Below are positions 12,112 to 58,921 of a DNA stretch of 64,000 nt, piece by piece; positions within the stretch are counted from its first letter, which is position 1; each line of letters opens with the position of its first letter. The DNA is taken from positions 38,398 through 102,397 of the forward strand of contig CAMZHV010000004.1 of NCBI GenBank assembly GCA_947307015.1, given 5' to 3'. The notes below the pieces were generated by a model. It made no database searches and was not told the DNA's origin. It worked only from the letters and a program-made list of their open reading frames with translations. The stretch comes from an uncultured Prevotellaceae bacterium (GTDB lineage: Bacteria > Bacteroidota > Bacteroidia > Bacteroidales > Bacteroidaceae). Position numbers and translations under genes: made by a program.

Positions 12112-12652
12112 CAGCCATTTACAAAAAAGGTTTCAGGTTTCAGATTTGCTTGTATCTTACTCACAATCAATGGCTTTCTGGCTGAACCTTTATCGGCGAG
12201 GTTTCAGCAGGTTTCAGCAAGCTTCAGCCTACCCACCCTTCGGGGCATCTCACAAACCAAAAGCGTCCCAAATTATAAGTAATCGAGCAAAAATATTTAA
12301 ATAGATTGACGATAAGATTGACGGAGATTGACGGAGAATATAAACACTTGAATAATTTTGTTTTATCCGTCAATTTCCGTCAATCAAGTCGTCAATCTTC
12401 GAAAATCAATAATGTAATCTAATTTTGAGTACTTACTTACCGATTTAAATTCCGATACATCAAGATTTAAGGTCAGATTTATGTCAGATTTAAGGTCTAT
12501 AAAAAATACATCCGAAACTTGAATATTACAATCATCTGAACCTTGCTGAAACCTGCTGAAACCTCAAACGCAAAGGTTCAGCTTGTATGGCTTTGATCAA
12601 CAGAAAGTTAAAACCCTAAGCTGAAACCTGAAACCTTTTTGATAAATGGCTG
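12112..12652. repeat. Nested imperfect inverted-repeat locus (arms A, B, C)
   Basis: Arm A 12112-12143/12621-12652; arm B 12181-12227/12536-12582; arm C 12303-12335/12366-12398; arms built of short direct repeats. Confidence 0.8.
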
Positions 12653-12692
12653 GATTTTTGGGATCTCGCGTCATCCATCATTCGTCATCGCC

Positions 12693-12780
12693 ACACATAT
12701 ATACGTGTGAGGCCATACGTCTATACGTATGTGCCAATACGTCTATACGTATCGCCGTGTCCCATTAATGGGACGCGCGA
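12693..12780. repeat. 22-bp-period units with internal dyads
   Basis: 12693-12714 acacatatatacgtgtgaggcc; 12715-12736 atacgtctatacgtatgtgcca; 12737-12758 atacgtctatacgtatcgccgt; 12759-12780 gtcccattaatgggacgcgcga. Confidence 0.7.
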
Positions 12781-12957
12781 ACCCTCCTAAGAGTCTACGC
12801 GAACCCTCCTAAGAGTCTACGCGAACCCTCCTAAGAGACCACGCAAACCCTCCTAAGAGTCTACGCGTAGACTCCTAAGGGTTTTTGCAAATTGCCTATA
12901 GGGTTTTGGCGAATTGTCTATAGTGTTTTGGCAGAAAGCCTAAGGGGTGTTGGCAGA
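12776..12957. repeat. 22-bp tandem repeat array that reverses orientation at its centre
   Basis: Four units cgcgaaccctcctaagagtcta (12776-12863), perfect palindrome gagtctacgcgtagactc at 12857-12874, then four degenerate inverted units (12868-12957). Confidence 0.85.
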
Positions 12958-12997
12958 AAAGAAAAACAGCCGATAATCTTTCGACTATCAGCTGTTC
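12955..12997 (-). terminator. Rho-independent terminator of tRNA-Pro
   Basis: Stem aacagc..gctgtt plus gata/tatc, followed on - strand by tttttctttt. Confidence 0.7.
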
Positions 12998-14635: not shown

Positions 14636-14870
14636 AAAAAAACAAGAAAAACCCCTCTTCTAATGTCTGAGTCTTTCAGACTTACGTGCTGCAGTCATGG
14701 CGATGCGCCTGAAAGCAGGCTTTCGCGCACGCCCCGCCATCATCACTCGTTTCGTCCCGAAACACAGACATCAGCAGAGGCAAACGCTCGAACTTGTTCG
14801 CTTCTTCGAGTCTCTTCTATGAGACGAGTCTGAAGAACATCGCGCTTCGCGCTAAAAAACAGAGCTACTG
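14636..14870 (+). repeat. Structured dispersed element, copy A (about 235 bp)
   Basis: About 90% identical by eye to 57631-57873; final 85 nt before the poly-A identical; many short hairpins. Confidence 0.85.
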
Positions 14871-55920: not shown

Positions 55921-57045
55921 ATGATTACCCGTAAGTTGCAAGCAAAGATAGAGCAAAAGCTCTTCAAGGGAAAGACCATTGTTGTCGTGGGAGCCCGTCA
56001 GGTGGGCAAAACCACGCTTTTCAATGAAATCCTCCGTGGACGCACGGAAAAGACGCTTCGCCTGAATTTAGACGAAGCGGAGGCCCGCGAGCTGCTCACG
56101 CATCCCACTATGGCCGACTTGCAGCAGCTGATAGCCGACAACGCCATTGTGATGATTGACGAGGCACAACGTGCTACGGACATTGGGCTGACCCTGAAGC
56201 GCATTCAAGATAACTTTCCCCATGTACAACTCATGGTGACCGGTTCTTCTTCCTTAGACCTGCGTGCACGAATCAACGAACCAATGACGGGCCGCAAGTG
56301 GGAATATATGCTCTATCCTTTGTCTACGGGTGAGATTCTTCATTCCAACGGTATTCTCTCGGTCAAGCAGTCCTTAGACAGTCGACTCATCTATGGTTCC
56401 TATCCTGATGTCCTCAACTATCAGACAGAGGCACGGGAAACGCTGACGAACCTGACTGGCAGTTATTTATACAAAGACCTACTTGAAATAGAAGGCATCC
56501 GTAAGCCTGCATTGTTGGAGAAACTGTTAGTGGCTTTGGCCTTGCAATTAGGCAGTGAAGTGTCATATAATGAGCTCGCACAAACCGTAGGCTCTGACAG
56601 CAAGACCGTGGAAAAGTACGTGGACCTATTAGAGAAGTGCTTTATTGTCTTCCGACTTCCGGCTTTCAGCCGCAACCTACGTAACGAGCTGAAGAAGAGC
56701 CGCAAGATCTATTTCTTCGACAACGGTGTGCGCAATGCGGTCCTGCAGAATTTCACTCCTTTGGCATTGCGCGGTGATCCAGGTGCGCTATGGGAGAACT
56801 TCTTCATTAGCGAGCGGCTGAAAGCGAACCATTACGCCGGGCATTACGCCAAGAGCTACTTCTGGCGCACCAAGTCGCAGCAGGAAATAGACTATATCGA
56901 GGAGTCCGACGGCACTTTCCATGCCTTTGAACTGAAATGGAATCCCAAACGTGCCACCACGACCCTTCCCGCCAGTTTCACCCAGACCTATCCTGTGACC
57001 GAGGCGACAGTCATCACTCCTGAGAACTACCTTGATTATTTGTAA
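55921..57045 (+). CDS. AAA ATPase with C-terminal DUF4143
   Basis: Walker A VVVGARQVGKTTLF; VMIDEAQRATDIGLTLK; C-terminal TKSQQEIDYIEESDGTFHAFELKW. Confidence 0.93.
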   Translation: MITRKLQAKIEQKLFKGKTIVVVGARQVGKTTLFNEILRGRTEKTLRLNLDEAEARELLTHPTMADLQQLIADNAIVMIDEAQRATDIGLTLKRIQDNFPHVQLMVTGSSSLDLRARINEPMTGRKWEYMLYPLSTGEILHSNGILSVKQSLDSRLIYGSYPDVLNYQTEARETLTNLTGSYLYKDLLEIEGIRKPALLEKLLVALALQLGSEVSYNELAQTVGSDSKTVEKYVDLLEKCFIVFRLPAFSRNLRNELKKSRKIYFFDNGVRNAVLQNFTPLALRGDPGALWENFFISERLKANHYAGHYAKSYFWRTKSQQEIDYIEESDGTFHAFELKWNPKRATTTLPASFTQTYPVTEATVITPENYLDYL

Positions 57046-57338: not shown

Positions 57339-57373
57339 ATAGTTGCCACCCAATCCTCTTATTGCGCGTATAC

Positions 57374-58197
57374 GCGCGCACGTGAAAGGCCTAAAAATCT
57401 CGTCACATCGTCACAGATTGACTTATCTGTCTGTTATACAGCTTGATATATCGTGACTTTTGGTGTGACAGAGCGTGACAAGGTGACGAAATCGAGGAAA
57501 ACGCGACGAAAAACATACTGAAATCAGGAAGAAAATAGGTTTAAACAGGACTCCTGTTGCGGATGTATGATTGTATTTCAGAACTTAAATCCAACATAAA
57601 TCTAAACCTAAATCATGAAGTTTCGGTATTAAAAAAACATTAAAAACACCTCTTCTGATGTCTGAGTCTTTCAGACTTGCGTGCTGCTGTCGTGACGATG
57701 CGCCTAAAAGCAAGCTTTTGCGCACGCTACGCCATCATCCCTCGTTTCGTCCCGAAACACAGACATCAACAGAGGCAAACGCTCGAACTTGTTCGCTTCT
57801 TCGAGTCTCTTCTATGAGACGAGTCTGAAGAACATCGCGCTTCGCGCTAAAAAAAAGAGCTACTGACGATCATTTTGATTTCATAATGTGGCATCAATGA
57901 AAAGATTGAATATCGTTTCAGCAGATGACTTCGCCGCGCTCAACGAATGCAATATAGACTTACCTAATCGCAAAAGTCACGGATTCTGTGCAAGAGGACA
58001 TGCTTTTTTATGTTCCAGAACCTAAAAATACATCATTTTGAATGTTAATATCATTTAATTTCAGGGTGAAAATGAGCCGTTTTGTCACCAAATCACGCCT
58101 CGTCACAGGCTTTGTCACGGCATAGTTACCTGTTTATCAGATATATAACCATACAATGTGACGATGTGACGACATTTTGATAGCCTCTCGTGCGCGC
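57374..58197. repeat. Second nested imperfect inverted-repeat locus
   Basis: Outer arms 57374-57415/58157-58197; second arms about 57420-57490/58079-58147; inner arms about 57562-57588/58008-58035. Confidence 0.75.
57631..57873 (+). repeat. Structured dispersed element, copy B
   Basis: See copy A (14636-14870); same orientation. Confidence 0.85.
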
Positions 58198-58256
58198 GCG
58201 TAGGTCGCGCCCATCATCTTTGCACAGCGTGACTTCATACTCGCATCAGTCAACAC

Positions 58257-58326
58257 GTCTATACGTTTTAGCCGATACGTATAGACAAATAGACTGTTCG
58301 ACACGTGTCGAACAGTCTATTCGTCT
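58257..58326. repeat. Adjacent hairpins including a 34-bp perfect palindrome
   Basis: gtctatacgt..acgtatagac (58257-58286); aatagactgttcgacac/gtgtcgaacagtctatt (58288-58321). Confidence 0.9.
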
Positions 58327-58378
58327 CTTCTGCCCAAAGGCATTTATATATTTGGTAACCAGAAAGTGATGTACTGAC

Positions 58379-58921
58379 TTATTTGATGTTGCCGTTGGCG
58401 TCGACAGTGAAGAAGAAGGTGTCAACGAACTTCTCGTTATCGGCAGCAACAGCTTTCACGTCAAGCTGCGGGTAATTCACGGTGCCGTTCTTGCCCAAAA
58501 CGTCGAGGTATTCGCCATCAGTGTTCGAGGGCTTACCATTGACAACGTATTCATAAACAATGTCGAACAATTCACCATCGCCGATAGCAGAGAGGTCAGC
58601 CTTGGGGGCTGCGGTGACGCGAACGCCGAACTTGCCGGGGAACTGGGTGATGTTGAAGCTGTTGTTCCACTCAGCATTGCCGTACTTCAGGGGTTCTACA
58701 CTGACGAGGTTGCCCGTCTGGTCGTAGTACTCGATGGTGAAGGTGAAAGCCTTCTGAATTGACGTCTTGGTGGCATCGCTAATCTTGATGCGGTAGTTCA
58801 CTTCCACCGTTTTGACCTTTGTGGCATCTTCGGATATCTTGTCGTCATCCTTGTTGCACGAAGTCATTACAGCGCCGCAGAATAGGATGGCGGCCATCAT
58901 CCATAAAAGATTCTTTTTCAT
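58379..58921 (-). CDS. Secreted lipoprotein of unknown function
   Basis: Lipobox GAVMTSCNK; 180 aa. Confidence 0.8.
   Translation of the reverse strand: MKKNLLWMMAAILFCGAVMTSCNKDDDKISEDATKVKTVEVNYRIKISDATKTSIQKAFTFTIEYYDQTGNLVSVEPLKYGNAEWNNSFNITQFPGKFGVRVTAAPKADLSAIGDGELFDIVYEYVVNGKPSNTDGEYLDVLGKNGTVNYPQLDVKAVAADNEKFVDTFFFTVDANGNIK

Follow-up and report, generated by a model that had tools for sequence, protein, structure and literature searches.

Inverted iteron arms at a gene-less locus of an uncultured Prevotellaceae genome and their relatives around VapE helicase genes

A gene-less locus between two inverted arms

The window, meaning the whole 64-kb stretch of DNA analysed here, belongs to a Bacteroidales genome (G000), apparently Prevotella-like and from the rumen, of 2.99 Mb in 94 contigs, whose assembly is ~86% complete. 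The locus under study (57.37–58.33 kb; the 57-kb locus) is intergenic, with an AAA_14/DUF4143 gene on one side, ending at 57045, and a 180-aa ORF of the minus strand on the other, at 58379; no ORF of at least 100 aa was found within it. Its left outer arm (57371–57491, plus strand) carries GTCAC at 57402 and 57410, an AT-rich spacer, and GTGAC at 57453, 57465, 57475 and 57483. The right outer arm (58072–58202, minus strand) is an inverted copy, with GTCAC at 58084, 58102 and 58114, a spacer, and GTGAC at 58158 and 58166. GCGCGC tracts lie outside both arms, before the left one and after the right one. The resulting ruler, two GTCAC 8 bp apart, an AT-rich spacer of ~43 bp and four inverted GTGAC at intervals of 12, 10 and 8 bp, is exact in the left arm, and the right arm has one degenerate iteron, at 58092.

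Outer inverted arms had been placed here by the first-pass annotation, and the two segments do pair, with a local alignment score of 56 against a mean of 15.5 and a maximum of 28 in 200 dinucleotide shuffles. Allowing at most one mismatch, GTCACNNNGTCAC occurs at only four sites in the window (57402, 57475, 58084 and 58158), all of them in the outer arms; because four matches are the chance expectation for the whole window, the weight rests on their in-register clustering at one locus. The arm spacers average 70% AT, compared with 45% for the window and 57% for the intergenic stretch of the 57-kb locus.

Nested layers and modular cargo

Inside the arms lies the left half of a second iteron layer, built on AAATCT (57584–57615, plus strand), whose right half is lost here and kept in the copies on contigs C1 and C11. 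It is followed by a 235-bp structured module (copy B, 57631–57865, plus strand) that is 93% identical to copy A at 14636–14870 (plus strand), with an alignment score of 390 against a shuffle maximum of 29, and whose predicted RNA fold is better than that of shuffles (z −2.55). A second cargo module (57888–58014, plus strand) is common to contigs C52 (87%) and C26 (80%). Outside the right outer arm, a tail of ACACGTCTATACGT-type units and a palindrome with 22-bp arms (58253–58326, plus strand) is common to the C1, C7, C10, C11 and C60 copies. Several congeners also have parts of the 235-bp module, and on one contig (G107:C350) some of the adjoining cargo occurs as an inverted pair. Among Rfam models, only tRNA-Pro exceeded its gathering threshold in the window; MIR6297, mir-3149 and DUF3800-II scored far below theirs.

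The first-pass annotation had described the 57-kb locus as a second instance of a nested dyad near 12 kb, with modules shared beyond chance. A non-chance, modular structure is borne out: the outer arms, the 235-bp module and the segment homologous to 12.43–12.53 kb all exceeded dinucleotide-shuffled controls; in the last case, 57556–57634 aligned with the reverse strand of ~12.44–12.52 kb over 79 nt at 77% identity (score 64, shuffle maximum 40). The tail units were said to resemble 22-bp units at 12.7 kb, and here the direct-strand pairwise match is weak (34 against a maximum of 29), although the tail recurs in other copies of the family.

The kinship of the two loci is likewise partial. They agree in architecture, but their outer dyads belong to different families with different iterons. 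At the 12-kb locus, the left outer arm (12115–12240, plus strand; right arm ~12545–12660) is of GGTTTCAG type, unrelated to the GTGAC arms, and encloses a GATTGACGG inner dyad (12303–12400, plus strand) and an AAATCT arm (12463–12494, minus strand) that is inverted relative to the one at 57 kb; the loci therefore have just the inner AAATCT layer and the tail units in common. The GGTTTCAG dyad family has at least five other copies in this genome and some in two congeners. One of these, on C1, is uninterrupted and 92% identical to the 12-kb copy outside the gap, which shows that the 12-kb copy received its GATTGACGG/AAATCT material by insertion; this empty-site comparison bears on the inner layer only.

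No partner gene for GGTTTCAG was found among 139 genomes, nor any VapE partner for GGTTTCAG, GATTGACGG or AAATCT, and an origin-like reading of these layers is therefore by analogy. One candidate for an autonomous AAATCT partner, a gene between AAATCT dyads (L224), proved to encode a BACON/CHB_HEX surface protein, and no other was found. Arrays of ~22-bp palindromic units (AACCCTTAGG, TCCCATTAATGGGA, ACGTCTATACGT), at 12700–12960 in the window, 4900–5010 in L057 and 4150–4245 in L061, accompany VapE genes as well as gene-less dyads.

Dispersal of the arms in this genome and in congeners

Used as a query, the 57-kb locus gave 60 matches in its own genome, spread over more than 20 distinct sites. 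Sister copies keep the outer arms and vary in their interiors: the C1 copy has a complete AAATCT dyad, the C11 copy different cargo, the C17 copy the 235-bp module, and the C7 and C10 copies lack the AAATCT layer. Elsewhere a single arm stands by itself (L041, L049). For the outer element, neither a target duplication nor an empty site was found, the latter for the 57-kb locus and for the C17 copy downstream of nadD, and no relative with both flanks kept was found; since one genome per species was compared, no strain-level insertion sites can be read.

A scan of the genome collection for the exact ruler returned 28 stretches, nearly all from rumen Bacteroidaceae/Prevotellaceae, and the congeners with GTGAC arms are uncultured members of this group. 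Two of the 28 stretches (L126 and L116) contain a VapE gene. The genome with L126 (G115) also has gene-less GTGAC dyads (L125, L129, L130). Between these and two further gene-less dyads from a second species (L042, L043), the inter-arm spacing is almost the same, at 126–128 bp, and the interiors are unlike. In one congener, a GTGAC dyad (L124, 1352–2541) encloses a PDDEXK_3 nuclease-family gene as cargo. Exact matches to the ruler outside Bacteroidota were limited to one each in Azospirillum (L204) and Lentisphaerae (L207), for which chance, contamination or transfer is possible.

Some VapE helicase genes lie between such arms

The first-pass annotation gave no partner gene, and the link to VapE helicases is an addition of this study. 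In L126, GTGAC arms stand on both sides of the VapE gene, with rulers of 8-43-11-11-8 and 8-10-12-45-8, close to the 8-43-12-10-8 of the window arms; L116 has one GTGAC arm (8-45-12-11-8), 5′ of its VapE gene, so that among GTGAC elements only L126 has a VapE gene enclosed by two arms. The genome of the window has six BT4734-like (PF08800) genes, three of which are flanked by inverted arms with iterons of their own: TGCAC (L057), TTCAC (L060) and GGTGGCAG (L061). The GGTGGCAG arms recur at ~10 other sites of the same genome. No GTGAC-armed VapE gene, the would-be driver of the 57-kb element, was found in the ~86% complete assembly. DUF3987, another candidate partner, is absent from this genome.

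In a wider survey, ~21 of the 68 VapE loci with adequate flanks had inverted flank matches well above shuffles. With a score of at least 34 as the definition of an armed gene, 19 of the 21 testable genes in clades A and B were armed, with gene-specific iterons, compared with 0 of 24 in a monophyletic clade beside lpxD/lpxC (Fisher p = 9e-11), and arm similarity followed protein identity (Mantel r = 0.43, p = 5e-4); this single threshold was applied to the same data that suggested the pattern and was set after the scores had been seen, so the p-values are descriptive. Armed genes outside these clades were L060 and L184, and L138 scored high on apparently low-complexity sequence. Among control genes, the only one of 32 counted as armed was an arginine decarboxylase (L225), an artefact of simple tandem repeats in its flanks.

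Armed genes have varied neighbours and unarmed ones conserved synteny. In armed relatives, the 3′ arm starts 0–107 nt past the VapE stop codon. An HU-like gene often lies just beyond the 3′ arm in clade A, and a DUF6078 gene often inside the arms in clade B; at the loci examined, the arms enclosed just VapE, or DUF6078 and VapE. The clade beside lpxD/lpxC (L058, L143, L153, L171 and 20 others), in many cases with a pyrF-like gene on its other side, looks like a mobile-element helicase that has become fixed in the chromosome.

The helicase motifs (GPQGVGKS and LINIDEF in L126) are intact and lie where conservation among the armed proteins is highest. The primase motif I (DhD) of these proteins is degenerate: L126, L057, L061 and others have a different residue in place of the second acidic one, which the unarmed basal clade possesses, and their priming activity is therefore doubtful. 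The helicase and C-terminal part matches PriRep1 (7PDS), a staphylococcal island initiator (HMM E = 6e-15). In a predicted model of L126 (mean pLDDT 82.9, pTM 0.58), residues 342–752 match DNA-bound PriRep1 with Z = 22.9, the domain placement being uncertain (rmsd 7.2), and the SaPI5 primase-helicase (7OLA) is matched with Z = 11.2; a C-terminal helix-helix-strand-strand unit of the model is read as winged-helix-like. Beyond a generic PrimPol model and a weak one associated with DRT, defence annotation gave no match.

Comparison with known replication origins and dispersed repeats

PICI origins lie immediately downstream of rep and have an AT-rich region with a set of iterons on either side (PMC6092414), and the SaPI Rep protein uses its C-terminal domain to recognise its origin (PMC7581432). 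Each arm described here shows the same layout, with iterons on both sides of an AT-rich spacer, and the helicase and C-terminal region is homologous to that of PriRep1-type initiators; on these grounds, the arm-VapE-arm arrangement may be read as a pair of facing origins that enclose an initiator gene. The position just 3′ of the initiator gene is also shared, in the armed relatives; the 57-kb locus has no rep or VapE gene for an arm to follow. Unlike PICIs and SaPIs, the present elements have two inverted copies of the site flanking the gene, and gene-less copies are scattered through the chromosome. Integrase, repressor and packaging genes were not found between the arms, so that these are not whole PICIs. 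The putative origin of SCCmec Cch2 (PMC7581432) is similar in its short 5-nt iterons read by the C-terminal domain of a self-loading helicase, and differs in being a single origin in a cassette with recombinases.

REPIN/RAYT systems (PMC3116915) resemble the arms in their dispersed intergenic inverted doublets and singlets, a repeat-flanked cognate gene and co-diversification. Their units are short palindromes, however, as opposed to ~100-bp units with iterons, and their partner is a Y1 (IS200/IS605-like) transposase rather than a BT4734-VapE helicase. BrickBuilt and other MITEs of Porphyromonas gingivalis (PMC4596501) are likewise intergenic elements of Bacteroidota with inverted ends and tandem units of ~22–23 bp, but BrickBuilt ends resemble those of IS5-family ISPg elements, and no GAGACCTTTGCA-like end was found at the 57-kb locus within two mismatches. 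No description of these arms was found in the open-licence literature searched; one may exist elsewhere.

Interpretation and alternatives

We consider it probable that the 57-kb locus derives, as a gene-less and non-autonomous form, from an element composed of an arm, an initiator helicase gene and an inverted arm, with a second layer nested inside it. Each arm would be an origin-like site, with two opposed GTGAC iteron sets around an AT-rich spacer. Autonomous relatives would encode between their arms a BT4734-VapE protein, an SF3-type helicase with a winged-helix-like C-terminal region and a degenerate primase domain, which probably binds the arms by that region and melts the spacer. A cognate helicase would serve the gene-less copy in trans, and the AAATCT-iteron layer and its structured cargo sit nested in the outer element. 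Re-replication between two facing origins may yield DNA that re-inserts. Several observations count against this reading: no integrase or transposase that would account for insertion lies inside the arms, the search for a GTGAC-armed VapE gene in this genome and for an empty site or target duplication of the outer element gave nothing, L116 has a single arm, and the primase motif of the armed proteins is degenerate.

More tentatively, such loci may form a class of selfish chromosomal elements, facing origin pairs dispersed by their cognate initiator helicase in the absence of a transposase; their solo, nested and gene-less forms would then evolve like REPINs. If the origin reading of the arms is right, interspersed repeats of a major gut and rumen lineage would be origins of an island-type replication initiator, tying PICI replication modules to MITE- and REPIN-like repeats and offering a testable route for DNA to spread by replication instead of by transposase. 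This would also account for many nested dyads that stand unannotated in Prevotella-like genomes, and the widespread BT4734-VapE genes, of which one lineage is apparently fixed at the lpx locus, would gain a function.

A conventional MITE, with terminal inverted repeats moved by a transposase encoded elsewhere, iteron arms that hitch-hike and VapE elements moved in the same way, seems to us unlikely. The 57-kb element is short, non-coding, multi-copy, nested and bounded by inverted ends, as a MITE would be, and the inner AAATCT insert at 12 kb has TIR-like ends (TATTCAA..TTCGG and CCGAA..TTGAATA) inside a GGTTTCAG dyad of which the genome has an uninterrupted copy at another place. The shared ends of the outer elements, however, consist of iteron arrays and go with a helicase gene, and at the loci examined no transposase was seen between the arms. 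The parent found so far carries a helicase. The one target-duplication candidate, TTAC, is weak and confined to the inner layer.

It is improbable that these are decoys, that is, origin-like arrays kept in the chromosome to titrate the initiators of invading islands or phages, as in iteron incompatibility. Solo arms are indeed common and GTGAC copies persist here with no cognate helicase detected, but titration leaves unexplained the inverted arm pairs around a helicase gene, the cargo and the degenerate iterons (58092). Even less probable is a regulatory or RNA element, with arms as operators of VapE autoregulation and dyads as transcription terminators or structured RNAs: the fold of the 235-bp module would suit it, as would the closeness of the upstream arm to the VapE promoter at several loci, but arms also occur immediately 3′ of the gene and at numerous unrelated positions, and what is conserved is iteron spacing, not hairpin pairing.

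Apart from the GTGAC family, solo GGTGGCAG arms were noted at L245–L251 and L050, several of them with TTTCTTCAT/ATGAAGAAA inverted ends on the outside, in the manner of palindromic repeats of ~125 bp.
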